The translations under genes were made by a program, and so were the position numbers. Positions 775 through 32,564 of a stretch of DNA of 34,255 bases are shown piece after piece. The notes under the pieces are model-generated. The model made no database searches. It was not told where the DNA came from and was given only the letters and a program-made list of their open reading frames with translations. The DNA is taken from assembly GCF_012034385.1 (NCBI RefSeq), contig NZ_JAAVJB010000033.1:1-34255 (forward strand), written 5' to 3'. Numbering within the stretch: the first letter of the stretch is position 1; each line of letters starts with the position of its first letter. This stretch comes from Streptomyces spiramenti (GTDB lineage: Bacteria > Actinomycetota > Actinomycetes > Streptomycetales > Streptomycetaceae).

Positions 775-862
775 GGGGAGGCTCCTTAGACTTCTGGGCG
801 GTCGATCAGGTGGTTAAGTGTCCCCCACGCAAGGGTGTGCGTGCGAAAGGGGCTGGTGGAGG

Positions 863-4569: not shown

Positions 4570-4677
4570 GTGTGCGGGGGGCGAAGGCCGGGGCGGTGCC
4601 GGCGGGGCGATGGTGCGTGCTGCGGGCAGCCGGGCGCTGCCGGTACGCGACGGCGGCCGGGGGCGGACGCCGACTGG

Positions 4678-5250: not shown

Positions 5251-5327
5251 GCGGGTCACCTCGTCCGCTCGGTGGTGCTGCGGGCGCCGGCGGCGTCCGC
5301 CCGACTCCTTCGAGCGTAGGCCGGATG

Positions 5328-5366
5328 CACCCCGCCCGCGCCTCCGGCGAAGGCGCGGGCGGGGTG
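5328..5366. terminator. perfect 16-bp hairpin terminator
   Basis: CACCCCGCCCGCGCCT (5328-5343) is exactly complementary to AGGCGCGGGCGGGGTG (5351-5366), with a 7-base loop. It lies about 85 bases past the stop of the MerR gene and before the DinB gene on the same strand, so it should insulate the two. Confidence 0.88.
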
Positions 5367-5450
5367 GCGGTGGGGGCTCGCGGGCCGGACGGTGCGGGCG
5401 CCGGGTGGTGCAGACCCGGGGCCGCGGCGGGCGCCCGCGGACGGCGCCGC

Positions 5451-6233
5451 TCAGGCGGTGTGTCGGGCGGCGTTGCGGGCGGCGTTGGCGACGATGGCGT
5501 CACGCAGGTAGCGGGCCAAGCCGGGGGCGACGGCGTCGTAGGTGGCGGTGAACCGCTCGTCCGAGACGTACATCTCCCCCAGGCAGGCGTGCAGCTCGTA
5601 CCCGCACTCGTAGAAACTGCCGCAGATCTGCTGCCGGTGCTCCTCCGCCAGCGCCATCCCCTGCGGGGAGTCGGCGGCGACGCCGTCGGCGAGCGCGGCG
5701 GCGATCCGCTGGTTGAGCGCGTCGGTCTCCGCCTTGATCCGCGCCCAGTCCTCCTTGGTGTAGGAGCCGGTGCGCCGCTGGGACTCCTCCCAGGCGGCGG
5801 TGTCGCCCCAGCGCTGCTCGGCCTCGGTCTCGTACTCCTCGGAGTAGGACTCACCGAAGACCTCGAACTTCTCCTCCGGCGTGAGCTGGATTCCCATCTT
5901 CTTCGCCTCCATGGCGTGTTCCACTGCGGCGGCCATGCGTTGCAGCCGCTCGATCCGGTCCGTCAGCAACCGGTGCCGTCGTCGCAGCTCCGCGACGGGG
6001 TCGATCCCGGGGTCGTCCAGCAGCGGTGCGATCTCCTCCAGCGGGAAGCCGAGCTCCCGGTAGAAGAGGATCTGCTGGAGGCGGTCGAGGTCGGTGTCGT
6101 CGTAGCGGCGGTGGCCGGCCCTCGACCGGCCGCCGGGGCGCAGCAGCCCGATCTCGTCGTAGTGGTGCAGGGTGCGCACCGTGACGCCCGCCAGTTCGGC
6201 GACGCGTCCCACGGACAGTGCCCGCTCCGTCAT
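5451..6233 (-). CDS. MerR-family regulator with TipAS domain (TipA-like)
   Basis: 260 residues from ATG at 6233, with GGAGGAGAGG directly upstream. Residues 5-72 are a MerR winged helix (SVGRVAELAGVTVRTLHHYD, then GHRRYDDTDLDRLQQI). A dimerising helix follows at about 78-112. Residues 130-255 are a TipAS antibiotic-binding domain: WARIKAETDALNQ, HRQQICGSFYECGYELHACL, then MYVSDERFTATYD. In Streptomyces TipAL this domain binds thiopeptide antibiotics, one of them covalently through a cysteine. Three cysteines lie in the matching region (about 204, 210, 217), but which would align is inference. The gene probably senses a cyclic thiopeptide-like ligand and activates its own promoter (see 6427-6457). 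Confidence 0.92.
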   Translation of the reverse strand: MTERALSVGRVAELAGVTVRTLHHYDEIGLLRPGGRSRAGHRRYDDTDLDRLQQILFYRELGFPLEEIAPLLDDPGIDPVAELRRRHRLLTDRIERLQRMAAAVEHAMEAKKMGIQLTPEEKFEVFGESYSEEYETEAEQRWGDTAAWEESQRRTGSYTKEDWARIKAETDALNQRIAAALADGVAADSPQGMALAEEHRQQICGSFYECGYELHACLGEMYVSDERFTATYDAVAPGLARYLRDAIVANAARNAARHTA

Positions 6234-6426
6234 CCTCTCCTCCTCCGTTCCTGCTGCCGATGCCGCTGCCCGTCGCCGGTGGCCGTCCGCCGTCGGCCCG
6301 CGTCTGCCGACGCGGCGCCTGCGGCCAGGGTGGCACCGGTTCCGCTGCTGCTCACAGCCCCGGTGCGGGGCGCGGGCGCGGCGTCGGGCCGCGTCGCGCA
6401 CCGCCTCACGGTCGCTGACGTCGTCC

Positions 6427-6442
6427 ACGGTGCCGCCTCACG

Positions 6443-6457
<15 letters not shown>
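6427..6457 (-). promoter_or_regulatory. MerR-type promoter with 19-bp spacer and 17-bp palindrome
   Basis: Reading leftward, TTGCAC (6457-6452) is followed by a 19-base spacer and CACCGT (6432-6427). The palindrome CCTCACGT-C-ACGTGAGG (6436-6452) fills the spacer. A dyad inside an overlong 19-bp spacer is the hallmark of promoters activated by MerR proteins. The promoter points at the TipA-like gene about 190 bases away and overlaps the last codon and stop of lysR. The -10 match is weak, as expected for an activated promoter. Confidence 0.65.
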
Positions 6458-8846
<2,389 letters not shown>

Positions 8847-11585: not shown

Positions 11586-12413
11586 GTGTTCCCCGCGCAG
11601 GCGGGGGTGGTCCGCTCAACCCGGCGGACGCCGCGCGCCTCGGTGCGTGTTCCCCGCGCAGGCGGGGGTGGTCCGGAGCGCCTGGCCGAGTCGGAGACAT
11701 ACGTGGAGTGTTCCCCGCGCAGGCGGGGGTGGTCCGAACAGCGACAACGCCAGGGCCTGGTACGGACACGTGTTCCCCGCGCAGGCGGGGGTGGTCCGCC
11801 CCACTGGGCCGTGCCCACCGCGCCGCCCTCGTGTTCCCCGCGCAGGCGGGGGTGGTCCGACCGCCGCAGCGGCAGCGGTCGGGTTTCCCGTGTGTTCCCC
11901 GCGCAGGCGGGGGTGGTCCGGCGTGCGGCGTGCGGCGACGGGACGCTGGCGTCCATCGCGTGTTCCCCGCGCAGGCGGGGTGGTCCGGAGGCAGCGTGCC
12001 CCGACTCCGAGTGCTGCCGGTGTTCCCCGCGCAGGCGGGGTGGTCCCGCCATTCCGGGGCCCACCAGTGGGACGGTCGCGTATTCCCCGCGCAGGCGGGG
12101 GTGGTCCGTACCGGGCCCGCGTGCTGCGTGTCCCCAGCAAGTGTTCCCCGCGCAGGCGGGGGTGGTCCGGCAGCCCGGGAGGACTACGAGGACGAGCCGC
12201 AGTGTTCCCCGCGCAGGCGGGGGTGGTCCGTTGGCCTTCACCCGGGCGTACCGGTTGGCGTTGTTCTCCCCGCGCAGGCGGGGGTGGTCCTGCCGGTGGG
12301 GGGTCGCGAGTCCGCGACCCCCAGTTCTCCCCGCGCAGGCGGGGGTGGTCCGCTGGGGTACCAGTTCGCCGGGTCGATCCGTCGGTTCTCCCCGCGCAGG
12401 CGGGGGTGGTCCG
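11586..12413 (+). CRISPR. type I-E-like CRISPR array 1: 14 repeats, 13 spacers
   Basis: The 29-bp repeat begins GTGTTCCCCGCGCAGGCGGG and ends GTGGTCCG; the hairpin is CCCCGC-GCAG-GCGGGG. Repeats start at 11586, 11647, 11708, 11770, 11831, 11892, 11960, 12020, 12080, 12141, 12202, 12263, 12324 and 12385. Spacers are 32 bp except the third (33) and sixth (39). Repeats 7 and 8 lack one G of the GGGGG run. Repeat 9 starts GTATT, and the last three start GTTCTCC. A degenerate fifteenth unit with a core CTCCCCGC is traceable at about 12446-12466. Decay at the right end and the leader at left give a + orientation. Repeat length, hairpin and 61-bp period fit type I-E. No cas gene is adjacent. Confidence 0.98.
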
Positions 12414-12630
12414 CACCTCCGGTCGGGACGGCTTCCGGTGCGCCGAACGCTCCCCGCCTGGCAGTCGCTGACTCATGAGTCGCGGCATACGTTTCCGCGC
12501 AGGGCTTGGCGACGCGCAGTACCAAGGCTGTCGGCGCGATACCACGGGTTGACCGTTCGCCGAAGTGGACAGGCTGTCCGTGTTGAACGGGGGCCGATTA
12601 CGCACACGAAAGATCGGCAAGGAGGTCGCT
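12414..12630. other. gap between array 1 and the HAD gene
   Basis: Holds the last 32-bp spacer-like stretch, the degenerate final repeat, and a perfect 12-bp palindrome GACTCATGAGTC (12470-12481). TTGACC at 12549 could be a -35 element for the HAD gene, but no good -10 follows. No gene is supported. Confidence 0.5.
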
Positions 12631-13859: not shown

Positions 13860-15089
13860 GTGCCTGACTCTACCCTGCCCGGCGACCGCCTCAAAAGAGC
13901 GCGGATGAGCCGCGGCTACACCCAGGAAGACCTCGCCAACCGCGCCGAGCTCTCGCTGTCATTGATCAAGAAGGCCGAGCGGGGCGGCACCCTGCGCTTG
14001 GAGACGTACCACCGGATCGCGCGCGCCCTCGGCGTGCGTACCTCCGCGCTGCTGGAGGAAAGCGGCCCGCCTCATGCTCGGCGCCGTGCCGACGACCAGG
14101 ACCGGCTGGATCTGGTGCCGCTGCGTCGCGCAATCGCTCCCCCTGAAACGCCGTCGGGCCGGCTGCTGTGGCAGGACGACAGTGCGCCCGAGGTCCAGCG
14201 ACTGCGAACCACCGCGTCGGCACTGAACTCGGCGTACCACGCAAACGACTACGGCCGGGTCGCCGAACTACTCCCACCGCTCCTCCTGTCGGCACACCTC
14301 GCCGTGGCGCACTTCTCGGGTACCGGAGAGGCAGCGGACGCCCTACGCGTCCGCGCAGACCTGCTGACCCAGGCCGGGCGGTTTCTTACGCAGCTCAGGT
14401 CATTCGACCTGGCACACATGGCGCTGCGGGAGGCGTTGCGCGACGCGCGGACAGCAGGCACCCCCCTGCTCGGTGGCGCGGCCACCTACATCCAGGGGTG
14501 GGCGCTCATCCGCGAGGGCCGCCTCGACGAGGCGGAGGCGCTGACTTCCCAGGCCGCGGAGGAGATCGAGCCTCGCATCTCCCGAGCCAGCCGAGACGAG
14601 CTGGCGGTATGGGGCCGACTGTGGGACAAGGCCGCTGCAGCTGCCGCTCGCAACAATCGGCCGAACGAGGCCCGGGAGATGCTGCGACTGACCCGCTCCG
14701 CCGGTGCTGCGGTCGGAGAGCGCGGTGGCGGGGAACGCTACGCGACAGGGAAGTTGACCGCGGCGTCAGTGCTGTTCGCCACCGCGGAGGCAGCAGCGGT
14801 CGCCGAACACCCTAAGCGGGTACTGCTGCTCTCCGAGCGGATCACCCGCACCGGGCAGGCACCGACGAGCAACATGCTGAACCGGCACCTGCTGGACGTG
14901 GCGCACTCGCACATGATGCTGCGAGAGCGGAGAGAGGCCGAGGGCATCCTGTCGGGCCTGGCAAAACAGGCGCCGGACTGGTTGCGGCATCAACAAATGG
15001 CGGCGGAGACGTTCGCGGATGTGCTGGCTTCGTCAGGCCGTTTGACGAGCCGCCAGCGCGAGTTGGCGGCCTTCTTCGACACTCCCTAA
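13860..15089 (+). CDS. XRE-family HTH regulator with TPR-like C-terminal domain
   Basis: 409 residues from GTG at 13860. Residues 8-65 are a Cro/CI helix-turn-helix (GDRLKRARMSRGYTQEDLAN, then SLSLIKKAERGGT). The rest is helical and repetitive (AYHANDYGRVAELLPPLL, GWALIREGRLDEAEAL, EAREMLRL, REAEGILSGLA), the TPR-like sensor half common to large Streptomyces regulators. These bind DNA as dimers and may sense a peptide or small molecule; the ligand is unknown. GGGGA lies a few bases upstream. A hairpin terminator follows, then tiny genes including a member of the MPEPIPWP family. It is divergent from the frameshifted small gene. Confidence 0.88.
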   Translation: MPDSTLPGDRLKRARMSRGYTQEDLANRAELSLSLIKKAERGGTLRLETYHRIARALGVRTSALLEESGPPHARRRADDQDRLDLVPLRRAIAPPETPSGRLLWQDDSAPEVQRLRTTASALNSAYHANDYGRVAELLPPLLLSAHLAVAHFSGTGEAADALRVRADLLTQAGRFLTQLRSFDLAHMALREALRDARTAGTPLLGGAATYIQGWALIREGRLDEAEALTSQAAEEIEPRISRASRDELAVWGRLWDKAAAAAARNNRPNEAREMLRLTRSAGAAVGERGGGERYATGKLTAASVLFATAEAAAVAEHPKRVLLLSERITRTGQAPTSNMLNRHLLDVAHSHMMLRERREAEGILSGLAKQAPDWLRHQQMAAETFADVLASSGRLTSRQRELAAFFDTP

Positions 15090-15106
15090 GTCACCTCAGG
15101 GATCAC

Positions 15107-15153
15107 GGGGCGTGCACTCTCGGTCGCAGTGGCGAACCGAAAGTGCACGCCCC
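15107..15153 (+). terminator. terminator of the HTH/TPR gene
   Basis: GGGGCGTGCACT (15107-15118) pairs perfectly with AGTGCACGCCCC (15142-15153). The helix resumes inside with CGGT/ACCG around an 11-base loop, and GTCTCTGTT follows. Confidence 0.8.
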
Positions 15154-15222
15154 GTCTCTGTTACGACGCGTAAACGGATCGTAGCGTTCTTGGGGTACCC
15201 ACCGACCGAGGAGCCCGCCGAA

Positions 15223-15361
15223 ATGCCCGAGCCCATCCCGTGGCCTTTACGACGCCCCCGAGCACACGCGCAAGCAGGTCCCGCCGCCCTGCGCCACGGG
15301 CCACAGGTCCGCTCAGCTGAGCTGCCCGTGCAGGTCCGTGTCGGCACGGACCGTCGCATGA
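15223..15361 (+). pseudogene. frameshifted member of the MPEPIPWP small-protein family
   Basis: ATG at 15223 has GAGGAG about 9 bases upstream and encodes MPEPIPWP, the exact start of the tiny protein at 22614-22489. The next bases match that family only after a one-base shift: YDAPEHTRKQVPPPCATGH resembles GTPEHIRRPIPPLCPTCNRI. Restoring one base after 15245 would give about 46 residues ending at TGA 15359-15361. In this copy the second Cys of CxxC is Gly. Without a shift the frame is open to 15807 but loses the resemblance. It may be a decayed copy, or a sequencing error may have broken it. Confidence 0.45.
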
Positions 15362-15597
15362 GTGGGGCCGTGCCCCCCTCGTGCGAGCAGCGGCGGACTC
15401 TCACCGGCCGGACACCCTCGGGCGCCAACGCTACGTGGGCTGCAACCGTCGGCCTGAGTCACTCAGTGCGCGGAGAACGCCGTGCCGGGGACGTGCGCCC
15501 CGGCGCCCACGCCAGCCTCAAGAAGCGCCACCCCAGCGGTATATCGACCACGCGTAGCACCAGGGACCGCATGGACATCGACGACGGGGTGATCAGC

Positions 15598-15807
15598 ATG
15601 GAAGCGCGCACCAGTGCGCAGCTCAACCGGAGGCAGAGCCTTACCGACGCTGCGGCGGGCGTGTATCGATCTGCTCCGTGCCACATCGGTCAGCATGCCG
15701 AGTGCCCCGATGCCCTACCGCAGGGCGCGGAGACCAACTCGCACCGGGACGACAGCCCGCCCGGCGTGACGTTCGAACGGTGCGTCTGCACGTGCTCGCA
15801 CGCCTGA
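15598..15807 (+). CDS. small Cys/His-rich protein, unknown function
   Basis: About 69 residues from ATG 15598 (another ATG at 15571 is possible). The C-terminal half has a C/H pattern suggestive of metal binding: APCHIGQHAECPDA and later FERCVCTCSHA. No family is recognised. GGGG about 8 bases upstream is a modest ribosome site. It overlaps the next gene by 28 bases, so coupled translation is likely. The open frame continues upstream to 15112, but that part has no coding character of its own. Confidence 0.45.
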   Translation: MEARTSAQLNRRQSLTDAAAGVYRSAPCHIGQHAECPDALPQGAETNSHRDDSPPGVTFERCVCTCSHA

Positions 15808-16091
15808 GGTCACGGCAGCGACCGGTCTGCCGCCACCTGCCTCCCGTCCTCAGTCCGGTCGTGCTGCCGGCCGAGGCGGTGCACGTCGGTGACGTGGTCA
15901 TCACCGGAGGCCGAGCACAGCGAGTCCTCGACGCACGGCGCACCTACGCCGGCGTTCAACTCGGCGGCCGGACCTGGCGCATCGGAGTACCGCACGGCGC
16001 TCGGATGACGGTCGTCCGCGCCATGACGCTCTCGCCGCCGGTCACGCCGGAGCGGGCTCGCCGGCCCTGGTGGCGGCGCCTCCGCCGCTGA
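15780..16091 (+). CDS. small basic protein with SH3-like beta segment
   Basis: About 103 residues from GTG 15780 (GTG 15792 also possible), starting inside the end of the previous gene. The middle reads VLPAEAVHVGDVVITGGRAQ, then VQLGGRTWRIGVPHGARM, an alternating beta pattern like small SH3/KOW-type domains often found in Streptomyces regulatory clusters. The end is very basic (RRPWWRRLRR). No ribosome site is evident, which fits translational coupling. Function unknown. Confidence 0.5.
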   Translation: MRLHVLARLRSRQRPVCRHLPPVLSPVVLPAEAVHVGDVVITGGRAQRVLDARRTYAGVQLGGRTWRIGVPHGARMTVVRAMTLSPPVTPERARRPWWRRLRR

Positions 16092-16249
16092 CCCCACCCG
16101 CATCCGAGCCGTCGCCGCAGCTCCTCCACCCCGCCCCCGGCTACTAGCTAGGGCGGCCACATTCCCGCGCCGGCCGAGGTGACCACCACCCGGCTCCCCC
16201 GCTGCCCCTCGGCCGGCGCGGCACCACCCGACGCCGGCCCGCCCGTCAC

Positions 16250-16576
16250 GACGACGACCCCGCCCCAGCCCCGCTTGCCTCTCTGCGGAATTCGCCACTC
16301 ACGCTCGACCGCCTGCCCGCACCCGCCTCCCAGGAGACCGAACTTCCCCCAAGCCGCCCCCACACCACGAAGGGGTCCCTCGATCTGGGCGCCGCCACGC
16401 GAGTCCTACTCTCCGATTCCGCGCCTCCCGCCAGCCACCGACGATCCGCCGTCCCCACGAGCGGCGGACTCAGCCCAGACTGGCCTGACTTGGGTGCCAC
16501 AGTCCTCCACAGCGGGCTCGACGGCAACTCCGCCGATGCCATGGATCACGACGACAGCGACGACCTCACGAAGTGA
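16250..16576 (+). pseudogene. possible remnant of an unidentified coding sequence
   Basis: In the 730-base gap before array 2, one frame ending at TGA 16574-16576 reads as plausible protein for about 100 codons: SPLTLDRLPAPAS, GSLDLGAATRVLL, GLSPDWPDLGATV, DAMDHDDSDDLTK. G/C in third positions is fairly high. No convincing start codon or ribosome site was found, and no family is recognised. It could be the tail of a gene whose front was lost. Long Pro/Thr-rich frames over the same bases look like artefacts. The rest of 16092-16740 holds nothing clear. Confidence 0.3.
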
Positions 16577-16740
16577 CCGCCGGAAAGCCCCCGTGTACGC
16601 CACCGGGCCCCCCGGGCCACGCGTGCTTCCTGACCTGCTCCCTGGAGCGCAGCACTGATCTGAACTCAACACGCGAGGCGCCCCGTTTGCGGCGAACGGC
16701 GCGCACCGCCCGCGGAGTGAAGCGCCGCGGACTGCCCAGC

Positions 16741-16823
16741 GCCTCTGGCAAGATGCCGGTATGACCCGATCGACCGATGGCAAAGGATTTGCAAAGCCCT
16801 CCTAACGCCCTAGGTCGCGAAGG
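16741..16823 (+). promoter_or_regulatory. leader of CRISPR array 2
   Basis: Aligned with the array-1 leader it keeps CAAGATGCCG, GGCAAAGGATTTGCAAAGCC and AGGTCGCGAAGG, with scattered substitutions between. Similarity stops upstream of about 16741, which defines a functional leader near 80 bases. Confidence 0.8.
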
Positions 16824-18560
16824 GTGTTCCCCGCGCGAGCGGGGGTGGTCCGGACCCGCGATGAACTCGATCACGACACAGGCCGTGTTCCCCGCGCGAG
16901 CGGGGGTGGTCCGCTGCGTGCCGGTGAGGAGCGCAGCAGTCATGTGTGTTCCCCGCGCGAGCGGGGGTGGTCCGGCCGTCAAGGTCGACAACGGCTGGCG
17001 GCTCTCGTGTTCCCCGCGCGAGCGGGGGTGGTCCGCCGGTGCAGGACAACGTGGGCGCGATCCTGCTGTGTTCCCCGCGCGAGCGGGGGTGGTCCGCATC
17101 AGTGAGAACGACCAACCTTCACTGAGACGTGTTCCCCGCGCGAGCGGGGGTGGTCCGAGCCGGGTGAACCGGTCGCGGACGTCGTCGGGGTGTTCCCCGC
17201 GCGAGCGGGGGTGGTCCGCAGTACCAGAGCGCGTCGGAGTTCCGGGGGTGGTGTTCCCCGCGCGAGCGGGGGTGGTCCGTCCGCGGCCACCGCCACTGGA
17301 ACTCGGACCACGTGTTCCCCGCGCGAGCGGGGGTGGTCCGACCGAGCTCGGTCGTCTCGATCTCCCGCACCAGTGTTCCCCGCGCGAGCGGGGGTGGTCC
17401 GACCGCGCAGCCTACGAGGCGACCGGTGTCTCGGTGTTCCCCGCGCGAGCGGGGGTGGTCCGCTGGTGTTGCACCGCCGGCGGACCTTTACGTCGCGTTC
17501 CCCGCGCGAGCGGGGGTGGTCCGACAGTGTCCAGCCTGCTGCGCTGGCTCACCTAGTGTTCCCCGCGCGAGCGGGGGTGGTCCGGCACAAATGCAAATGG
17601 CCCCGCTCCCTTGTCTGTGTTCCCCGCGCGAGCGGGGGTGGTCCGGCAGTGACCAAAGCATCCGGGTCCAACCCGCGGTGTTCCCCGCGCGAGCGGGGGT
17701 GGTCCGGCCCGCATCGCGATCCAGGGCGTGTCCGGCTCGTGTTCCCCGCGCGAGCGGGGGTGGTCCGACCACCACCGGTCACCGGGTCTACCTCCACATG
17801 TGTTCCCCGCGCGAGCGGGGGTGGTCCGGCGTCGACCTGCCGTCCCTCGGTGCCGCCCGTGTGTTCCCCGCGCGAGCGGGGGTGGTCCGCCGATCAGGGC
17901 GAGGGCGAGGCCGCCGATGACGTGTTCCCCGCGCGAGCGGGGGTGGTCCGCCCGCCGACTTCCCCCGCCTCGACGAGCAGGCGTGTTCCCCGCGCGAGCG
18001 GGGGTGGTCCGTGCGGTCACCTCACGGTCGACGCCCGCAGCGAGTGTTCCCCGCGCGAACGGGGGTGGTCCCGTGCAGGAGTCACTCCGGGCGCTGGCCG
18101 AGCTGTGTTCCCCGCGCGAGCGGGGGTGGTCCGATGATCCGAGTCCGGCGCGCGGTCGACGTCCTGTGTTCCCCGCGCGAGCGGGGGTGGTCCGGCGATC
18201 TCGCCCCGCTCATTCATCGTCAGATCGTGTTCCCCGCGCGAGCGGGGGTGGTCCGCTCCGGGGCATGAAGGCGGCGCGGTTCCGGTCGTGTTCCCCGCGC
18301 GAGCGGGGGTGGTCCGGCGCCGCGGCGTCCCACGCAGCAGGGACAGGCGTGTTCCCCGCGCGAGCGGGGGTGGTCCGTCGCGCCCCACGGGAGAACCAGC
18401 CATCGCAGCGTGTTCCCCGCGCGAGCGGGGGTGGTCCGTGCGGTTCGCCTGCCTGTTCCGGTGACCAGTCGTGTTCCCCGCGCGAGCGGGGGTGGTCCGC
18501 GGCGTGCAGCACGGCCAGGGGGTGAGCGATGGTGTTCCCCGCGCAAGCGGGGGCAACAAG
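16824..18560 (+). CRISPR. type I-E-like CRISPR array 2: 29 repeats, 28 spacers
   Basis: The 29-bp repeat begins GTGTTCCCCGCGCGAGCGGG and ends GTGGTCCG, with hairpin CCCCGC-GCGA-GCGGGG. Repeats start at 16824 and every 61 bases to 18532 without exception, so all 28 spacers are 32 bp. Variants: repeat 12 (17495) starts GCGTT. Repeat 21 (18044) has GCGAAC and ends CCC. The last (18532) has GCAAGC and a replaced 3' end (GGGGGCAACAAG). Regular spacing and intact repeats make this array look younger or more active than array 1. No cas gene occurs within the window; processing and interference would need genes elsewhere. Confidence 0.98.
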
Positions 18561-18617
18561 TGAGCTTCCCCGCCGCGGGGGCCTCAGCCCGCCCCCGCCC
18601 CCACCGGCGGCGGCCGG

Positions 18618-19376
18618 TCAGAGGAGGGCGCCGCCGGAGACCTCGATGCGTTGGGCGGTGACCCAGCGCAGGCCGCCGGTGGCCAGGGTGGCGATGGCGT
18701 CGCCGATTTCCTCGGGTTCGCCGACGCGGCCGAAGGCGGTCTGTCCGGCGAGCACTTGGCGCATCTCGGCGTTGTCCCGCATCGCTCCCCCGTTGAAGTC
18801 GGTGGCGGTCGGCCCGGGGGCGATGGAGTTGACGCGGATTCCGCGCGCGCCGAGTTCGCCGGCGAGGGTGCGGCTGAGGGCTTCGACGGCAGCCTTCGAG
18901 GCGGAGTAGACCGAGGTTGCGGGGCTGGTGTGGCGGGTCAGCGACGTCGAGACGTTGATGACGCTGCCGCCCTGGGCCAGCAGGGGCGCGACCGCCTGGG
19001 TGAGGAAGAACGTCCCCCGGACGTTGGTGCCCATCACGGCGTCGAAGTCCTCGACCGTGACCGCCTCCAGCGGCCCGAAGACCCCCACTCCCGCGTTGTT
19101 GACCAGGACGTCGAGCCGCGAGGCGCCCCAGCGCTCCAGCTGCTCACTCAACTCGGAGGTGAAGGACGGGAAGGAGTCGACGTCACGGATGTCGAGCCGG
19201 AGCGCAGCAGCCGTTCCGCCCGCCGCCTGCACCTGCTTCACCGTCTTCTCCGCCTCGGCCGGGTCGCCACGGTGGGTGACGAGGACCCGCAGTCCGCGGG
19301 TGGCCAGGGCGATGGCGGCTGCGCGGCCCAGGCCGCGGTTGGCACCGGTTACCAGTGCGATCTTGTCGGTGGTCAT
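18618..19376 (-). CDS. short-chain dehydrogenase/reductase (SDR)
   Basis: 252 residues, cytoplasmic NAD(P)H-dependent oxidoreductase of the classical SDR type. TGANRGLG (10-17) binds the cofactor, LDIRD (about 61-65) contacts the adenine, NNAG is at 93-96, the catalytic Ser is in INVSTS (143 or 145), and YSASK gives Tyr157 and Lys161. The C-terminus (GGLRWVTAQRIEVSGGALL) is typical of FabG-like members. Arg35/Arg after the third strand suggests NADPH preference, an inference. Start ATG 19376 has GGGAG about 6 bases upstream. It is divergent from a TetR gene with two shared operators, so its substrate is probably related to the TetR ligand. Confidence 0.92.
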   Translation of the reverse strand: MTTDKIALVTGANRGLGRAAAIALATRGLRVLVTHRGDPAEAEKTVKQVQAAGGTAAALRLDIRDVDSFPSFTSELSEQLERWGASRLDVLVNNAGVGVFGPLEAVTVEDFDAVMGTNVRGTFFLTQAVAPLLAQGGSVINVSTSLTRHTSPATSVYSASKAAVEALSRTLAGELGARGIRVNSIAPGPTATDFNGGAMRDNAEMRQVLAGQTAFGRVGEPEEIGDAIATLATGGLRWVTAQRIEVSGGALL

Positions 19377-19431
19377 GAGCTGCTCCCTCACCGAGCGGCT
19401 GCCGGAGTCAGTCGGCACCGCGGATGCGATG

Positions 19432-19447
19432 CGAGTCACTCGACTCG
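19432..19447. promoter_or_regulatory. TetR operator A
   Basis: CGAGTCACTCGACTCG, an inverted repeat with one mismatch between arms; it extends to GCGAGTC-ACTC-GACTCGC. It lies 56 bases before the SDR start and matches operator B in 13 of 16 positions. Confidence 0.7.
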
Positions 19448-19482
19448 CCTTTCACTCATCACGGTAGGGGCACCGCGAGAGA

Positions 19483-19498
19483 CGAGTCAAGTGACTCG
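19483..19498. promoter_or_regulatory. TetR operator B
   Basis: CGAGTCA-AG-TGACTCG, perfect 7-base arms. It overlaps the likely -35 region of the TetR gene and lies 51 bp centre to centre from operator A. Autorepression together with repression of the SDR gene is the expected logic. Confidence 0.75.
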
Positions 19499-19525
19499 CC
19501 TCGGGACTGCGGCATACTGGGACGC

Positions 19526-20152
19526 ATGGCAGCAGAGCTCTCCGCACACCACCGCAGGCTCGCCCGGCAGAAGCGCGAGGCGATCACCACCGCCGCCGCG
19601 GCGCTGTTCCTGGAGCGCGGCTACGACGGCACCTCGCTGGCGCGGATCGCGGAGGCCGCCGAGGTCTCGAAGTCCACCCTGTTCAAGCAGTTCCCCACCA
19701 AGGCGGCCCTCTTCGAGGCCATCGTCACCGAGTCCTGGAAACGCGACGACGCCGACGCCGTCGACCAGCCGCGGAGCGGGGACCTCCGCGCCGGGCTGAC
19801 AGCCGTCGGCCACCGCTACGCCGAGCTGATCGGCCGGCCGACGATGGCGGCGCTGTTCCGGATCGTCATCGCCGAACTGCCTCGCTTCCCCGAGCTGGGG
19901 CAGATGCAGTTCCAACTCGGCAAGCTGCCCTACTTCATCTCCGTGCAGCGCTACTTGGAGGCCGAGCACGAGGCCGGCAACGCCGACGTCCCCGACGCCG
20001 AGAGCGCGGCGAACCAGTTCCTCGGGATGATCGCCAACTACGTGCTGTGGCCCCGGATGCTGCTGACCGACTGGAACCCCACCACCGACGAGGTCGACAC
20101 CGCCGTCGACGAGGCCGTCCGCACCATGCTCGCCCGGTACGCCCGGGACTGA
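19526..20152 (+). CDS. TetR-family regulator
   Basis: 208 residues. The N-terminal helix-turn-helix (AITTAAAALFLERGYDGTSL, then AEAAEVSKSTLFKQFPTKAA) is canonical. The C-terminal ligand domain contains RPTMAALFRIVIAELPRFP and a closing NYVLWPRMLLTDWNP, as in the AcrR-like group with TetR_C_33-type tails. It should repress itself and the divergent SDR through the two CGAGTCA-type dyads and release on binding a small hydrophobic ligand. ATG at 19526 has no good ribosome site; CATACT (19513-19518) ends 7 bases before it, so the message is probably leaderless. Confidence 0.92.
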   Translation: MAAELSAHHRRLARQKREAITTAAAALFLERGYDGTSLARIAEAAEVSKSTLFKQFPTKAALFEAIVTESWKRDDADAVDQPRSGDLRAGLTAVGHRYAELIGRPTMAALFRIVIAELPRFPELGQMQFQLGKLPYFISVQRYLEAEHEAGNADVPDAESAANQFLGMIANYVLWPRMLLTDWNPTTDEVDTAVDEAVRTMLARYARD

Positions 20153-20153
20153 T

Positions 20154-20179
20154 CTGCCGGTCCGAGCCGAGGCCGGCAG
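20154..20179 (+). terminator. hairpin just after the TetR gene
   Basis: CTGCCGG (20154-20160) and CCGGCAG (20173-20179) with a 12-base loop, starting one base after the stop codon. A modest stem, possibly the terminator. Confidence 0.5.
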
Positions 20180-20354
20180 GCGGACGCCGTCGTGGAGGTC
20201 GATCACCTCCACAACGGCACCACCCGACCGCCCACCTCGGTGGGCTGCCAGGTGGACACGCAGGCATCTCCGCGCGCCCGTCAGAGCCGGGGCACGAGCC
20301 CGAACGCCCAGCCGCCAACGCGGCCGCTTCCGCCTCGCGGGGTGCTTCGCTGAG

Positions 20355-20397
20355 GGGGCCGGCGGGTCAGGGCCGGGGCAGGCGGGTCGCCGGCCCC
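20355..20397 (-). terminator. terminator of the small-gene operon
   Basis: GGGGCCGGC (20355-20363) pairs with GCCGGCCCC (20389-20397). It starts 5 bases past the stop of the minus-strand gene 20403-20570, so it probably ends that operon. The stretch 20180-20354 shows nothing else. Confidence 0.6.
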
Positions 20398-20402
20398 GCT
20401 GA

Positions 20403-20570
20403 TCACCGCTCGGGTGCCGGCTGCGGGGTCGCTTCCGCATCGGGCCGCCCGGCGTGCTCGGCGCAGGCCCACATCGTGTAGCCGGGCCCGGACATCTGCT
20501 CCACCACGGCGACCATGGCCAGTTCCCCTTCCGGTTCGCGACCGGCGTCCACGCACTGCGGGCAGATCAC
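20403..20570 (-). CDS. 55-residue Cys-rich protein, putative zinc-binding
   Basis: GTG at 20570 overlaps the TGA of the preceding gene (GTGA), a classic translational coupling. The protein starts VICPQCVDAGREPEGELAMV, continues with a hydrophobic VVEQMSGPGYTMWACAEHA and ends in a Pro/Glu-rich tail. CPxC plus CAEH makes a CxxC...CxxH metal site, probably zinc. Similar tiny proteins occur in Streptomyces regulator clusters (from memory). Role unknown; its operon partners are the DUF7848-like and MPEPIAWP proteins upstream. The gene was found by reading the minus strand, because it is short. Confidence 0.7.
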   Translation of the reverse strand: MICPQCVDAGREPEGELAMVAVVEQMSGPGYTMWACAEHAGRPDAEATPQPAPER

Positions 20571-20830
20571 GGCAACCACCGCCCTGGGGTCAGCTGGTAC
20601 GGCCTGGAGATGTCCTCCGCGTACTCAAGATGCCTCGGGTGGTCGCGGACAGGGTCGTGCGGCCGGCGCATCGCCTCTTCCGATCCGGGCGACCCCGGCC
20701 CGGCGGCACCGCATGTGGTGCATCGTGCTCGGTGGAGTTGCGGCAACGAGCCGTCGAGAGCACCAGGGGACAGCGCGTACGCGCGCATCCGATAGACCCT
20801 GCCGCTCAGGGGGGGCACCCGCCGAGTCAC
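20567..20830 (-). CDS. small DUF7848-like protein
   Basis: Up to 87 residues from GTG 20830; ATG 20788 (MRAYALSPG) is an alternative. Features: HRARCTTCGAAGPGS with a CxxC, an acidic-basic helix with HDPVRDHPRH, and the ending EYAEDISRPYQLTPG. A cysteine pair plus a closing RPY-x-x-x-PG resembles the small DUF7848 proteins of Streptomyces (recalled, not searched). It overlaps the next gene by 4 bases and, in another frame, the tail of the gene before it. Function unknown. Confidence 0.6.
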   Translation of the reverse strand: MTRRVPPLSGRVYRMRAYALSPGALDGSLPQLHRARCTTCGAAGPGSPGSEEAMRRPHDPVRDHPRHLEYAEDISRPYQLTPGRWLP

Positions 20831-20963
20831 CTAGCGGTTCGACCGCCTCGGGCAGGGAGGTGGCACCGGTCGGGTGCAGTCGCGCACAGGTCCGGCACGG
20901 TCCGGGAACCGGGCGCCGCAGGTGGTCCGGCGTTCCCTCGGGCCATGCGATCGGCTCGGGCAT
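20625..20963 (-). CDS. MPEPIAWP-family small CxxC protein (long open frame)
   Basis: ATG at 20963 has GAGGAG a few bases upstream. The first ~32 residues, MPEPIAWPEGTPDHLRRPVP then GPCRTCARLHPTG, are unmistakably the same family as the 41-residue protein at 22489-22614. After about residue 45 the resemblance has run out, yet the frame stays open to 20625 through the start of the DUF7848-like gene, giving 112 residues. A lost stop or a small indel near 20835 is likely, because the natural product should be near 45 residues. It is divergent from the NsdA-like gene, 110 bases away. CPxC/CRTC suggests metal binding. Confidence 0.6.
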   Translation of the reverse strand: MPEPIAWPEGTPDHLRRPVPGPCRTCARLHPTGATSLPEAVEPLGDSAGAPPERQGLSDARVRAVPWCSRRLVAATPPSTMHHMRCRRAGVARIGRGDAPAARPCPRPPEAS

Positions 20964-21073
20964 GATCAGCTCCTCAGTGGGGATTCACCCGATTTAACCG
21001 ATCCGGATACTGACAGCGATACCGTGAGAACGCGGAGAGACCGTGAACGCCATGAACGCTGTCGGGAGTCGCC

Positions 21074-22411
21074 ATGGCCAGATCCACTCGCGTGCCCAAC
21101 GCACGGCTCGCGGACCTCATCGACCAGGCTCGCTGGACGCGCACCCAACTCGCCCGGGCGGTCAACCGCGTGGGGCGGGAGCACGGCCAGGAGCTCACGT
21201 ACGACCAGTCGGCCGTCTCGCACTGGATCGCGGGAACGGTGCCGCGTGCGGCCGTACGGCCCCTCGTCTGCGAGGCGCTGTCGCGCCGGCTCCGCCGACC
21301 GGTCAGCGCAGTGGAGGCCGGCTTTCCGCCGTCAGCCGGAAGCACCTGGGGCGGGCTGGTCGAGGAGCTGATCGACATAGGGACCGCCGACAGCGACCCG
21401 GGCCGCCGTCCGGCCCTCGCCGCGGGCGTCTTCGAAGCCGCGGCGATGCCACCGGAGTTCGCCGAACTTGCCGCCCGCTCCCACGCCGTCTCGTCGGGAC
21501 GCACCAGTCGGATCGGGGCGGCCGAGGTCGAGACCGTGCGGCTGATGACGGAGCGGATCGCGGACATCCTCGATGAGCTGGGCGAGGGGCACGCCCGGCC
21601 CATGGCCGCCGCTTTCCTGGCGAACACCGTCGGCCCGTACCTGCGGGCGGGTGCCACGGAGGACACGAGCCGGGCGATGCGCTCGGCTGCCGCTGATCTC
21701 GTCTACCTCACCGGCTGGATGGCCATGTACGGCGATGCCCATCGTCTCGGGCAGCGCTACTACGTGAAGGCCCTCGAACTCGCAGCCGCCGCGGACGACC
21801 ACGTCACCTACTGCCGGACTCTGCGCGGTATGAGCCTCCAGGCGACCAGCCTGCACCACGGTCACCTGGCGCTCACGCTGGCGGATTCCGCCGCCGAAGC
21901 CGCCCCGGTCGCCTCACCGCGGTTGACCGCGTTCCTGAGGGGGCAGCAGGCGCACGCCGCCGCGATGACCGGTGACCGTCGGCATGCCCTCGACCGCCTG
22001 GCCGCCGCCGAGGCCGCACTGTCACGCGCCGACGAGCAGCGCGAGCACATCGGAGGATACGACCGCACCGCCTATCTGTTCCACGTCGGCCAGGTCCGCG
22101 AGCAACTGGCCGATCTGCCGGGGAGTATCCGGGCGATCGAGGAGTCGATCAGGGTGCAGCAGCCGCAGGAACGCCAAGGCCGGATGCACGCTCACGCCGT
22201 GCTGGCGAAGCGGCAACTCAGGCTCGGACATCTCGACGCGGCCTGCGCCAGTTGGACGCACTTCCTCGACCACTACCAGCGCGTCAGCACCGGACGGGGC
22301 GACAAGCACCTCCGCGAGCTGCGGGCGGCGGTCCGGCCGCATCGCGCCGCCCGCCCGGTGCGGCAGCTACTGGACCAGGCGACGGAGGTCGCGGCGGCGA
22401 AGGCCGCCTGA
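21074..22411 (+). CDS. NsdA-like TPR regulatory protein
   Basis: 445 residues from ATG 21074 with GGGAG 5 bases upstream. The start RVPNARLADLIDQARWTRTQ, then YDQSAVSHWIAGTVPR, is a divergent helix-turn-helix found in the NsdA group of Streptomyces regulators, in which NsdA represses sporulation and antibiotic production. The rest is TPR-like: AADLVYLTGWMAMYGD, RYYVKALELAAAADD, then LPGSIRAIEESIRVQ and LDAACASWTHFL. Membership is recalled from the N-terminal pattern; whether this paralogue controls development is inference. It is divergent from the small-gene operon at 20963-20403. GATACT (about 21005) is a possible -10. Confidence 0.8.
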   Translation: MARSTRVPNARLADLIDQARWTRTQLARAVNRVGREHGQELTYDQSAVSHWIAGTVPRAAVRPLVCEALSRRLRRPVSAVEAGFPPSAGSTWGGLVEELIDIGTADSDPGRRPALAAGVFEAAAMPPEFAELAARSHAVSSGRTSRIGAAEVETVRLMTERIADILDELGEGHARPMAAAFLANTVGPYLRAGATEDTSRAMRSAAADLVYLTGWMAMYGDAHRLGQRYYVKALELAAAADDHVTYCRTLRGMSLQATSLHHGHLALTLADSAAEAAPVASPRLTAFLRGQQAHAAAMTGDRRHALDRLAAAEAALSRADEQREHIGGYDRTAYLFHVGQVREQLADLPGSIRAIEESIRVQQPQERQGRMHAHAVLAKRQLRLGHLDAACASWTHFLDHYQRVSTGRGDKHLRELRAAVRPHRAARPVRQLLDQATEVAAAKAA

Positions 22412-22488
22412 GACCAGGAAGCTTCTGCCCCCGAGCGGCGGAGCGGGCGACAGCCGCCGCCGACAGCCGCCGCCATCATGGGTCGGCG

Positions 22489-22614
22489 TCAGTCGTCGGC
22501 GGGGTCGGGGTGGGGGGCCGGTGGGTGGATGCGGTTGCAGGTCGGACAGAGCGGCGGAATGGGACGCCGGATGTGCTCCGGGGTTCCCTCCGGCCAGGGA
22601 ATCGGCTCGGGCAT
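22489..22614 (-). CDS. MPEPIPWP-family small CxxC protein, intact copy
   Basis: 41 residues from ATG 22614 (another ATG at 22617), with GGGAG 5 bases upstream: MPEPIPWPEGTPEHIRRPIP, then PLCPTCNRIHPP and a Pro/Asp tail, stop TGA at 22489-22491. This is the cleanest of three relatives in the window and defines the family: an invariant MPEPI-x-WPEGTP start, an EH/DH-(I/L)RRP motif, and a CxxC followed by a conserved R-(I/L)-H-P. The CxxC plus His could bind zinc. It lies on the same strand as, and 136 bases downstream of, the HTH/TPR gene at 22750. No function is known to me. Confidence 0.75.
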   Translation of the reverse strand: MPEPIPWPEGTPEHIRRPIPPLCPTCNRIHPPAPHPDPADD

Positions 22615-22674: not shown

Positions 22675-22699
22675 GGTGTTTCACAGTTTGTGAAACACC
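22675..22699. promoter_or_regulatory. perfect 11-bp inverted repeat between HTH/TPR gene and small CxxC gene
   Basis: GGTGTTTCACA (22675-22685) and TGTGAAACACC (22689-22699) flank GTT. It lies 50 bases after the regulator stop and 60 bases before the small gene start. It could be an operator for the small gene or a short terminator; its AT-rich stem and lack of a T-run favour an operator. Confidence 0.55.
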
Positions 22700-22749: not shown

Positions 22750-23964
22750 TCAGACGCCCATCCAGCGGGCCATCGCGCCGACGCCCTCGCGGTCGGCGGC
22801 GCGGCGCAGCGCGCGGACGGTGTCCCGTGCCTGGGGATGGAACCGCACCTGTTGCGGCGCGGCGGCGCGCGCCTGGCGCAGCGACTCGTACGCCCCGGCG
22901 CGGTCCCCCGTCCACAACTGGGCGCGGCTGATGTCGATCAGGTGGTGGCTGACCCGGTCCGGGTACCGCCGTGCGAACCCGGCGTCGAGGTGGACGTCGG
23001 CCGCCAGGCGCAGCGCCCGGCCGTACTCCCCCACCTCGACCTCCAGCGCCACCTGGTGGACCAGTGCGTTGGAAGGGCCGTACGAGAGTAGGTAGTTGGT
23101 GGTCTCGCCGCCGAGGCGGCGCGCGGTCGCCCACGCCTCGTCCCAGTGCGCGCGGGCGGCGTCCGCCGCCGCCTTCACGCCCGGTGCGGTGCGCGCGGCG
23201 AGGATCGTGGCCCGCAGCCGGAGGTTGCCCTGCACGCACAGCGCGGGCGTCTCACCCCGGTCGGCCGCCGGCGCCACGTCAGCGAGGCACTGCTCCATGA
23301 GGCGCAGCCCGATGTCGTGCCGCCCGGTGGAGAAGCAGGACTGCGCCCGCAGGAAACCGGTCAGCATCACGAGATACGGATCGCCGGACCTCTCAGCGCT
23401 GGACACCATCCGCGCCAGGATGATGTTGGACAGGTCGAGGTGGCCCAGCTTGTGGGTCGCGTCGTGGACGCAGCGGTAGGCGAACGCCAGCGCCCGGTGC
23501 AGGCGTTCCAGCTCGCGGCCCTCCAAGTGGTGCGAATGATGCACGAGTTCCTCGATGAGTGGTGGCGTCCCGCTGAGGACGGTGAGGTAGTCGGCGCCGC
23601 GGCGGATGTCGTTCATGCGCTGCACGTCCCGGTGCACCTCGCGCAGTGGCCGGGGCGCCGTCTGGGGTTCCAGCGGCACGTCCCAGTTCTCCAGCGCGGC
23701 CCGGACCGCGGCCAACGGCGCCTCGTACCTGGCGTCGCGCTGGTCGTCCTGAAAGGGCTGACCCATCAGCGTGCTGGCCTCGATGTGGAGGGCGCGCGCC
23801 ACCGCCGCGACGAGGGCGGGCGACGCGGGGCGGTTCCCGGACTCGACCTTCGACAGCAGGCTGTAGGAGACGGAGGCCCGCTGCGCCAGCCCGCGCCCGG
23901 TGAGGTGCGCCAACCGGCGCTGCTCGGCGATCCGGGCGCCGATGTGCAAGTCGCCGTCGCGCAT
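22750..23964 (-). CDS. XRE-family HTH regulator with TPR-like domain
   Basis: 404 residues from ATG 23964, preferred over ATG 23976 because GGGGAG sits 4 bases before it. Residues 5-62 are a Cro/CI helix-turn-helix (ARIAEQRRLAHLTGRGLAQR, then SYSLLSKVESGNRPAS). The rest is all-helical TPR-like (ELERLHRALAFAYRCVHDAT, AWATARRLGGETTNYLL, AGAYESLRQARAAA). This is a common Streptomyces architecture resembling peptide-responsive regulators; no ligand is known. Downstream on the same strand comes the intact MPEPIPWP protein, with an 11-bp inverted repeat between them. Confidence 0.88.
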   Translation of the reverse strand: MRDGDLHIGARIAEQRRLAHLTGRGLAQRASVSYSLLSKVESGNRPASPALVAAVARALHIEASTLMGQPFQDDQRDARYEAPLAAVRAALENWDVPLEPQTAPRPLREVHRDVQRMNDIRRGADYLTVLSGTPPLIEELVHHSHHLEGRELERLHRALAFAYRCVHDATHKLGHLDLSNIILARMVSSAERSGDPYLVMLTGFLRAQSCFSTGRHDIGLRLMEQCLADVAPAADRGETPALCVQGNLRLRATILAARTAPGVKAAADAARAHWDEAWATARRLGGETTNYLLSYGPSNALVHQVALEVEVGEYGRALRLAADVHLDAGFARRYPDRVSHHLIDISRAQLWTGDRAGAYESLRQARAAAPQQVRFHPQARDTVRALRRAADREGVGAMARWMGV

Positions 23965-24463
23965 TCTGCTCCCCATCCACTCGTCCTGACTTCGACCTCC
24001 AGGACGGTACCCAGCGGCAACTCCCGAACTCTCGAACAGCGTTGTACCGGGAGGTGTGGCCCGGCGGCCGATGTGCGCACCGTGCGTCCCGTGGCACGAC
24101 GGGTTCCCCTCCGGGCTTCCCGCGCCCGGCGCGCAGGGGCGCGGCCTCGGCGCGGGAGCGGGGAGTCCGCCGACCTACCCGAGCGGCGTCGGCGAACCGG
24201 TTGACCCGGCCACCGCCGGGTGGCGACGGGCGGCTGCGCACGAGCCCGCCCGGTCGGGCGCTACTCGCGCGCCCGGCGTGCGCGCCCCGGGCGCGGTATC
24301 GCCGGAAGTGGCCGGAGAAGTTCGCTCCGGCGGCGTGATCTCTGGGGTCCCCAGAGTGGCGCGCCGCCCACCGGGTAGCAGGACTCCTGGTGCCGTCCGG
24401 ACCGCCCCTGCCGGCGGGCCCGAGCGGCGAGGAAGAGTGACGGATACGGTGAGGAGTTTCCCT
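23965..24463. other. 500-base divergent gap with a 17-bp palindrome
   Basis: Between the HTH/TPR gene and the small membrane protein. The only clear element is CTCTGGGG-T-CCCCAGAG (24340-24356), a perfect 8-1-8 palindrome about 108 bases before the start of the membrane protein, a candidate operator. Open frames across the gap have no coding character. Confidence 0.5.
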
Positions 24464-31525: not shown

Positions 31526-32425
31526 CTAGAGCTGTTGGGCGATCTCGTGGAGCAGGCGACGCGTCGCCGCCGGGTCGAGCGCGGCACCGCTGAGCCCGTC
31601 GAACGCCCGGCGGTAGGCGGTGGTGTCCTCGGGCTTGTCCAGGTAGAGGGCGCTGGTGAGTTCCTCGACGTACGCGACGTCCGCGATCTCCGCCTCCGCG
31701 AACGAGAGCAGGACGAACGCCCCGGCGACCCCGGCGTGTCCGCCGTGGGAGAAGGGGATCACGCCGAGGGTGACGTTGTCGCGCTCCGACAGCTGCACCA
31801 GCAGCGCGAGTTGGGCCCGCATCACCTCGGACCCGCCGTAGGCGCGTCGGAGCGCGGCCTCGTCGAGGACGCAGTGCAACTGCGGTGCGTTCTCCGACAG
31901 CAGCAGCTTCTGGCGGCCCATGCGCAGCCCGACCCGCCGGTCCACCTCCGCACGCGACAGCTCCGGGAAGTTGCTGGTGACGACGGCGTGGGCGTACTCC
32001 TCGGACTGGAGCAGCCCGGGAATGAACTGGACCTCGTAGGTGCGGATGTCGTTGGCGGCCTCTTCCAGGCCGACGAAGGTCGGGAACCAGCCGGGCAGCA
32101 CGTCGTGGTAGCTGTGCCACCAGCCGGCGAGGCCGGAGGTGCGGGCCATGGAGAGCAGCGGCTCGCGTTCCGTCTCGTCGGTGACGCCGTAGAGGGTGAG
32201 CAGGTCGGCGACGTCGCGCGGCTTGAAGCTGACGCGGCCGAGCTCCATGCGGCTGATCTTGGACTCGGAGGCGCGGATCGAGTAGCCCGCCGCCTCCCGG
32301 GTGACGCCCCGCGACTCCCGCAGCCGACGCAGCTGCGCGCCGAGCAGGATGCGGCGGACCATGGGGCCACCGGCCTCGGCACCGCTCGGCGGTTCACCGG
32401 ATGCCGACGACGGCTGCGTACTCAT
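31526..32425 (-). CDS. WhiJ-like XRE regulator with DUF5753
   Basis: 299 residues from ATG 32425 with AAGGA 9 bases upstream. Residues 25-85 are a helix-turn-helix (LGAQLRRLRESRGVTREAAG, then ASESKISRMELGRVSF). The rest is DUF5753 (about 105-295), with the typical WWHSYHDVLPGWFPTFVGLE, QFIPGLLQSEEYAHAVV and YVEELTSALYLDKPED. In S. coelicolor, WhiJ and its many paralogues are encoded with an AbaA-type HATPase and a DUF397 protein and act on sporulation or antibiotic timing; the same three classes occur here (32693, 33470). The exact developmental role of this set is unknown. Confidence 0.93.
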   Translation of the reverse strand: MSTQPSSASGEPPSGAEAGGPMVRRILLGAQLRRLRESRGVTREAAGYSIRASESKISRMELGRVSFKPRDVADLLTLYGVTDETEREPLLSMARTSGLAGWWHSYHDVLPGWFPTFVGLEEAANDIRTYEVQFIPGLLQSEEYAHAVVTSNFPELSRAEVDRRVGLRMGRQKLLLSENAPQLHCVLDEAALRRAYGGSEVMRAQLALLVQLSERDNVTLGVIPFSHGGHAGVAGAFVLLSFAEAEIADVAYVEELTSALYLDKPEDTTAYRRAFDGLSGAALDPAATRRLLHEIAQQL

Positions 32426-32519
32426 GTGCTCAGGTCCTTCCACGTTCCGACATGCCGAAGTGTGCCATCTCCGAGCTTCGTTGTGTGCTTGCTCGGTTAC
32501 ACAGCATCGATTTTTGTCC

Positions 32520-32547
32520 GTGCACGTGCATCTGCCCTTGCATTTGC
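32520..32547 (+). promoter_or_regulatory. two-part motif, copy 1, in the whiJ-like/HATPase intergenic region
   Basis: GTGCACGTGCAT (32520-32531), seven bases, then TGCATTTGC (32539-32547). The same arrangement with the same 7-base spacing occurs upstream of the DUF397 gene. Contains the palindrome TGCACGTGCA. Confidence 0.75.
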
Positions 32548-32564
32548 GCGGGACGTTGGGAAGC

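Follow-up and report, generated by a model that had tools for sequence, protein, structure and literature searches.

What is the tiny gene that recurs beside regulatory genes in Streptomyces spiramenti? We studied 34,255 nucleotides of this genome (the window; contig NZ_JAAVJB010000033.1 of assembly GCF_012034385.1, positions 1 to 34,255), in which an earlier note, made from the letters alone, had pointed out three relatives of a very short protein with a CxxC motif. Each lay next to a regulator with helix-turn-helix (HTH) and tetratricopeptide repeat (TPR) domains, and the note had proposed that regulator and small gene make up a functional module. We found that the module is real. As for the role of the small gene, we give a probability of about 0.5 to the reading that it is cargo: the neighboring regulator would control it, and its product would act on a conserved component of the cell.

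The three relatives with the start MPEPI(P/A)WP are as the note had described them: one is intact, one has lost its stop, and one is shifted. Copy A (22489 to 22614, minus strand) is an intact frame of 41 residues, MPEPIPWPEGTPEHIRRPIPPLCPTCNRIHPPAPHPDPADD; no gene on the same strand stands directly behind it, and it is convergent with the NsdA-like gene. Copy B, also on the minus strand, starts at 20963 and is 65% identical to copy A over its 34-residue core. Having lost its own stop, it extends with a shifted tail to 112 residues (20625 to 20963). In S. lonarensis, the orthologue of copy B has 52 residues, and its stop shares the sequence ATGA with the start of a gene for a DUF7848 protein; the lost stop in S. 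spiramenti coincides with a one-base length difference near the tail. The DUF7848 gene of the window, which a scan assigned to that family, lies at 20567 to 20830 (minus strand) as second gene after copy B. The third relative (15223 to 15306, plus strand) starts with MPEPIPWP and then continues in a different frame, and the second cysteine of the pair is gone. Its orthologue in S. lonarensis is likewise broken and has lost more of the core; this copy is a pseudogene in both species. A fourth copy is found elsewhere in the genome (contig C18, 5890 to 6042), 96 bases after another HTH/TPR regulator, and S. otsuchiensis has an additional locus that carries the family.

Members of the family range from 41 to 73 residues, with a conserved N terminus and a variable C terminus; near the end of the C18 protein, TPEHLRAP is repeated. 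It is plausible from the conserved residues that the protein binds a metal, perhaps as a zinc knuckle: every one of the four locus types has H14, C23, and C26, and three of them also have H30. Copy A did not match any family in Pfam, NCBIfam, PADLOC, or PHROGs, and the proteins from C18 and S. otsuchiensis did not match any in Pfam or NCBIfam. The same Pfam and NCBIfam scan found no DUF397 (PF04149) in any of these three proteins. The structure model of the small protein contains one short helix, with a predicted local distance difference test (pLDDT) score of 77 and a predicted template modeling (pTM) score of 0.30.

Could the pairing be due to chance? There are seven intact occurrences: copy A, copy B (its core), and the C18 copy in this genome, copies A and B in S. 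lonarensis, copy A in S. bohaiensis, and the copy in S. otsuchiensis. All seven, from four species and four locus types, lie 94 to 135 bp from a regulator of the HTH/TPR or NsdA type, and both decayed copies adjoin a regulator too. The small gene either follows the regulator immediately or is its divergent neighbor. What comes next is a gene that we call the third gene (homologous at two loci) or, at another locus, DUF7848, and a stop/start overlap links the two genes each time. HTH_31 had 61 matches in this genome (46 above the cut-off). If the gene total is 4,842, which is the count given for Streptomyces sp. ventii in the accessible part of PMC7409846 and is taken as that of this genome by inference, then the chance that four of four copies would lie beside an HTH_31 gene is about 4e-7, or about 6e-4 if just two regulator families are independent. 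These are rough estimates, as the NsdA-like regulator is not an HTH_31 match; also, some of the pairs share descent, so the copies are not fully independent. Overall, chance pairing is unlikely.

Comparisons with related species show the module being exchanged as a unit. The flanks of the C18 locus (1 to 4221 and 6062 to 7696) are 96% identical to S. lonarensis contig C447 (6596 to 10797 and 12395 to 14028), and the DNA between them differs. In S. spiramenti, the regulator (4609 to 5793) and the small gene are the only convincing genes of the 1,840-bp block, which also takes in 11 codons from the start of the gene that follows; its other frames of at least 45 residues are short or overlap the regulator and as a rule have lower third-position GC. 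In S. lonarensis, the block of 1,597 bp holds a divergent XRE-DUF5753 regulator, a DUF397 gene, a 25-residue frame, and a 62-residue frame rich in arginine and leucine. A 42-base stretch within both blocks is still similar, and in both species the retained third gene starts before a small frame has ended. The block of S. bohaiensis resembles the one in S. lonarensis and is followed by the same gene (91%), but the flank upstream is not shared, so only S. lonarensis allows both flanks to be compared. S. bohaiensis also lacks the window block at 20177 to 22486 (DUF7848, copy B, and the NsdA-like gene) and carries about 1.6 kb of different DNA there, with collinearity resuming at 22487; the three genes are present or absent together. 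The allelic replacement at C18 implies that regulator and small gene can be exchanged as one module, broadly like the WhiJ/DUF397/AbaA-IosA systems. Together, the swap at C18 and the joint presence or absence of the copy B block strengthen the proposal of a functional module.

The earlier note had held that a lack of purifying selection on the CxxC would count against the module. Selection was found: the comparisons support purifying selection on the core and on the CxxC, as judged from codon changes. Over 38 codons, copy A differs from its S. lonarensis orthologue by one synonymous change and no amino-acid changes, and comparison with S. bohaiensis also gives a single synonymous change; had the protein been unconstrained and changed at the synonymous rate seen in its regulator, about 22 amino-acid replacements would be expected. 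Copy A of S. lonarensis and S. bohaiensis has two extra residues near the end. The first 34 codons of copy B contain one amino-acid change, at position 6, which varies among locus types, and the next 14 codons contain four. Between locus types, the ratio of nonsynonymous to synonymous rates (dN/dS) over 31 codons is 0.15 to 0.47, and 17 of the 31 core residues are invariant across the four locus types, although the partner regulators are 24 to 35% identical or unrelated. We also observed fewer synonymous changes between species in both copies than the adjacent regulator genes would lead one to expect (1 versus 7.2 in copy A; 0 versus 5.2 in 20820 to 20963 of copy B), which perhaps reflects a second constraint at the level of DNA or RNA.

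These results bear on whether common descent could explain the pairing by itself, with a duplicated block of regulator plus small gene in which the small gene does nothing for the module. A number of the regulators are indeed related: the regulator of copy A is 35% identical to the C18 regulator over its length, it shares one PHROG with the regulator upstream of the decayed copy, and the S. otsuchiensis regulator is weakly related. However, copy B is divergent from an unrelated NsdA-like regulator, and the dN/dS values indicate that the product is under selection. We consider descent alone to be improbable.

The note had also described each copy as sitting next to a different regulator. The adjacency stands, with gaps of 133 bases (13860 regulator to the decayed copy), 110 bases (21074 regulator to copy B), and 135 bases (22750 regulator to copy A), but the regulators do not all belong to different families. 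Those at 22750 to 23976 (minus strand, the partner of copy A) and 13860 to 15089 (plus strand, upstream of the decayed copy), which are the two that were compared to PHROGs for this family, both match phrog_5823 (E = 1.7e-67 and 4.8e-94, respectively). The regulator at 21074 to 22411 (plus strand), which is divergent from copy B, matches only phrog_10886 and is unrelated to that pair. It is a TPR-like protein of the NsdA family (394.5 bits for NsdA_fam_reg from NCBIfam, versus a cut-off of 75), yet it is neither NsdA nor NsdB (52.3 and 56.7 bits, versus 830 and 700). Across the loci of copy A, C18, S. otsuchiensis, and 15223, relatedness among the regulators is weak to moderate. The TPR part gives only a weak Pfam match, and DUF5753 was not matched in the regulators at 13860, 21074, 22750, C18, or S. 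otsuchiensis.

An HTH/TPR protein next to a tiny gene recalls RRNPP signaling (PlcR-PapR, ComR-ComS, Rap-Phr), in which the small gene would encode a propeptide and the receptor would sense the peptide made from it. The criteria given in the available portion of PMC10075063 (a receptor of 250 to 500 residues with an HTH and a peptide-binding TPR part, a propeptide of 10 to 100 residues, and a gap of -60 to 400 bp) agree with the receptor length, gene size, and spacing here. The model of the 22750 regulator is all helical (pLDDT of 74.5 and pTM of 0.58, from a shallow alignment), and its best Foldseek match is PlcR with PapR and DNA, although the resemblance is loose (E = 3e-4, TM score of 0.31 over the query); ComR and PrgX also matched. 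In a second look with VIA-align, the TPR domains of LGN (ranked first), Rap, and NprR matched at Z scores of about 13 to 18, a range in which helical repeats may match nonspecifically. PlcR, ComR, and PrgX were not among the best 50 VIA-align matches, which excludes nothing. TPR folds are widely alike, as the first place of LGN illustrates. The small protein is proline rich, with a highest mean hydropathy of 0.39 over 11 residues, and by hydropathy none of the four proteins has a hydrophobic stretch suited to export or a basic-then-hydrophobic export signal. Also, its N terminus is conserved and its C terminus is variable, which differs from the known RRNPP systems. We therefore think that a signaling propeptide is very unlikely. 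The conserved front and variable tail might also suggest the leader of a ribosomally synthesized and posttranslationally modified peptide, but we set this aside: no maturation gene was noticed beside the pairs, in the course of work that included no dedicated search.

If the small protein were instead a toxin, with the regulator as its repressing antitoxin, then small size, adjacency, joint movement, and the decay of a small gene while its regulator survives would all be expected. But the small proteins that we scanned match no family, and the matches of the regulators to antitoxin models are weak and cover only the HTH part. Furthermore, according to the accessible part of PMC10364602, 14 XRE/DUF397 pairs of S. 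coelicolor that were tested are not type II-like. A toxin-antitoxin pair seems unlikely from these comparisons.

How widespread is the module? The note had proposed a search for the pairing over Streptomyces genomes, and a pairing general to the genus was not supported. In 392 Streptomyces genomes, the start pattern occurs at eight places: four in this genome, three in two relatives, and one spurious match (in genome G176) that is antisense to another gene, which we take to resemble glycerol-3-phosphate dehydrogenase. The reversed control pattern had no matches among those listed. With tBLASTn, confident matches in the same 392 genomes were limited to this genome, S. lonarensis, and S. bohaiensis; 10 genomes matched in all, and the remaining 7 had E values of 0.001 to 0.01. 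A profile search matched 90 of these genomes at E ≤ 0.05, with added hits at 5e-4 or worse. From this list of weak matches, we inspected the 7 from tBLASTn and 27 profile hits with fetched loci, and none combines an MPEPI-WP-like start with CxxC; the best-looking one (L029) has no regulator neighbor among the frames listed. The family was not found in the 60 relatives searched. When we scanned 84,980 species genomes for MPEPI[PEA]WP or [GD]TP[ED]H[IL]RRP, we found three loci, in S. lonarensis, S. bohaiensis, and S. otsuchiensis; more divergent relatives would escape such fixed patterns. There were no matches to the MPEPI-type protein in collections of plasmids, phages, or IMG/VR viral contigs.

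We also examined relatives of the regulators from outside the clade. In six-frame translations, a profile of five cores found no MPEPI-type protein at any of the 83 fetched loci, which are a subset of the search matches and some of which stop at contig ends. By family, these were 27 loci for the 22750 regulator (best E value of about 0.55), 28 for the NsdA-like regulator (0.32), and 28 for the 13860 regulator (0.14). Among the genomes searched, then, the family was found only in four related Streptomyces species, to which it appears to be limited. The tabulation of neighbors that the note had called for thus bears out the pairing at each of the seven intact copies, but within a single clade.

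If the pair is a module, is the small protein its output or part of its control? As cargo, the small gene would be switched, along with any coupled second gene, by a regulator that binds the intergenic DNA in response to a signal sensed by its TPR domain. The small protein would stay in the cytoplasm and would hold one metal ion through H14, C23, C26, and H30, and the surface formed by MPEPI-WP-TPEHIRRP would dock on a cell component that is common to these bacteria. Its role, though not its sequence, may be comparable to that of IosA, a sporulation inhibitor that needs its neighbor WhiJ9 for activation. We favor cargo over a co-regulator for two reasons: the core is conserved beside two unrelated families of regulator, and the 13860 regulator has been conserved after the death of its small gene (between the two species, the decayed copy differs at 10 of 84 bases and the regulator at 18 of 1,227). 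The invariance of 17 of the 31 core residues despite divergent regulators also fits a common target better than it fits the regulators.

A co-regulator, which the note had suggested along with an antagonist of the TPR domain, would bind the TPR domain of its neighbor and alter DNA binding, as DUF397/BldB may do for WhiJ-type regulators. We regard this as possible but distinctly less probable than cargo. In its favor, the C18 swap parts the small gene from the downstream gene but not from the regulator, and of the 12 to 14 places per genome where the third gene was found in three genomes, the start pattern is present at only one. The replaced block in S. lonarensis contains DUF397, and Scr1 function requires Scr2, which is a DUF397 protein (PMC10364602, in the part available). 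On the other hand, the same conserved core would need to fit regulators of two unrelated families, which argues somewhat against an antagonist as well; the 13860 regulator does without its small gene, and all of the 83 fetched relatives of the regulators lack the protein.

Several observations weigh against the cargo reading. A co-regulator would travel with the regulator at C18 just as cargo would, and the 13860 regulator may owe its retention to other genes downstream of it. By motif, the S. otsuchiensis protein does not have all four ligands: it has M30, along with an extra C20, H25, H36, and C38. Modeled alone, the small protein did not match any solved structure. Finally, the spacers do not agree on an operator: the inverted repeats vary among loci, some are terminator-like, C18 has only a weak one, and the gap between the NsdA-like gene and copy B has none. 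A shared operator is thus only a candidate.

Two of these repeats lie in the spacers of the two phrog_5823 regulators. Before copy A, a perfect 11-bp inverted repeat with a 3-base loop (22675 to 22699, minus strand) is a candidate operator or terminator; just 1 of 200 shuffles was as good. It is identical in S. spiramenti, S. lonarensis, and S. bohaiensis, and its 17-base core pattern was matched nowhere else in the window with up to 3 mismatches. In particular, this palindrome was not found at the promoter of the 22750 regulator. Between the 13860 regulator and the decayed copy, a 20-base inverted repeat with one mismatch and an 11-base loop (15105 to 15155, plus strand) looks like a terminator, and none of 200 shuffles was as good.

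The position that the small gene takes often holds other small genes, so it resembles a slot for cargo. The third gene is found at at least 14 places in this genome, at least 12 in S. lonarensis, and at least 13 in S. bohaiensis, and just one third-gene place has the start pattern. We fetched 30 of the HTH_31 loci of this genome, and in 10 of them, including C18, the third gene lies within the fetched 3 kb. At the eight third-gene loci that we read closely, another short frame precedes it, often ending, by eye, with something like IDAHLKELG. The third gene did not match Pfam (E ≤ 0.1), PADLOC, or PHROGs and was not found in plasmids. Its family (L017 at 6029 to 6805, and L129 to L132) is a lineage-specific expansion whose members are often divergent from HTH regulators; elsewhere, there is a 52% identical relative in genome G145 and weak ones in other Streptomyces searched.

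Outside the clade, relatives of the NsdA-like gene have varied frames beside them, mostly starting about 70 to 210 bases away on the opposite strand; of five such frames scanned, two contain HATPase_c_2 and one contains DUF6415. For relatives of the 13860 regulator, a mechanical list gives some short downstream frame at 20 of 28 loci. For the C18 regulator, we examined 9 plasmid relatives from 45 records: the gene behind the regulator is DUF6415 in three, a recombinase in one, and a transposase in one, and four have no annotated gene within about 1 kb. In the Streptomyces phages Hank144, Paedore, Vash, and Ponzi, related regulators are followed by, or are divergent from, one to three small genes, which resembles the arrangement here without the MPEPI-type protein, which was not found in them. 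Hank144 and Paedore encode DUF7848, and an integrase is nearby in Hank144, Paedore, and Vash. The annotation of a Thermobifida phage member consists of overlapping frames and is little informative.

We also noted other features near these loci. After the decayed copy are a small cysteine-containing frame (15598 to 15807) and a small frame with VGDVVITGG (about 15840 to 16091), which looks by eye like the fourth gene on C18 and like one small gene in phage Hank144. The 13860 regulator and the decayed copy are flanked by two arrays of a 29-base CRISPR (clustered regularly interspaced short palindromic repeat) repeat, at about 11586 to 12416 and 16822 to 18553; the second was read directly, and the first was inferred from matches to an array of S. 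bohaiensis. We take the repeat to be type I-E-like. The closest outside relative of the 22750 regulator (62%; L055) has a frame with SYTHLTLPTI behind it, which is presumably a translated sequencing adapter, and this contig may be chimeric downstream of 2694.

What kind of system is this? It belongs to a known kind, the modules of Streptomyces that consist of a regulator plus small genes, of which WhiJ/BldB/AbaA-IosA are the best studied that we found; the version with the MPEPI-type protein is new. In the literature on DUF7848, DUF6415, RRNPP or TPR small proteins of Streptomyces, and NsdA, we found no published account of this protein, though one could still exist. As in the WhiJ/BldB (DUF397)/AbaA-IosA modules, an HTH regulator lies beside small genes, and one slot has variable cargo (there AbaA or IosA). 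WhiJ9 binds the gap between iosA and whiJ9 and is required for the activation of iosA in the absence of BldB, and IosA inhibits sporulation (PMC10294661, in the part available). AbaA has a HATPase_c domain (same source and part), and this kind of gene is likewise found beside the NsdA relatives. Also, an XRE-DUF5753/DUF397 block is the S. lonarensis allele of C18, and the window has an XRE-DUF5753 regulator (31526 to 32635) and a DUF397 gene (33470 to 33706) near its end. In contrast, the modules described here have no match to DUF397 or DUF5753, and HTH-TPR or NsdA-type regulators are combined with an unrelated proline-rich CxxC protein. The XRE-DUF397 pairs of the Scr1/Scr2 type also join a regulator to a tiny downstream gene, but they differ in the C-terminal domain of the regulator and in the small protein; such pairs act on antibiotic production and differentiation (available text of PMC10364602).

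A more specific picture, which we hold tentatively and consider rather doubtful, is that regulators of the HTH/TPR and NsdA types would each have a small partner that can be exchanged, and that the 31-residue core is a clade-specific metal-binding adaptor for two unrelated TPR regulator families. It would occupy the same slots as WhiJ/DUF397, in cassettes that are traded over a fixed downstream gene and that would rewire development.

Many modules of regulator plus small gene exist in Streptomyces, and some of them affect sporulation and antibiotics. With its very short protein, its sharply conserved core, and two natural alleles in sister species, this one offers a clean, testable case in which to ask how these modules are traded and what part their small partner plays.

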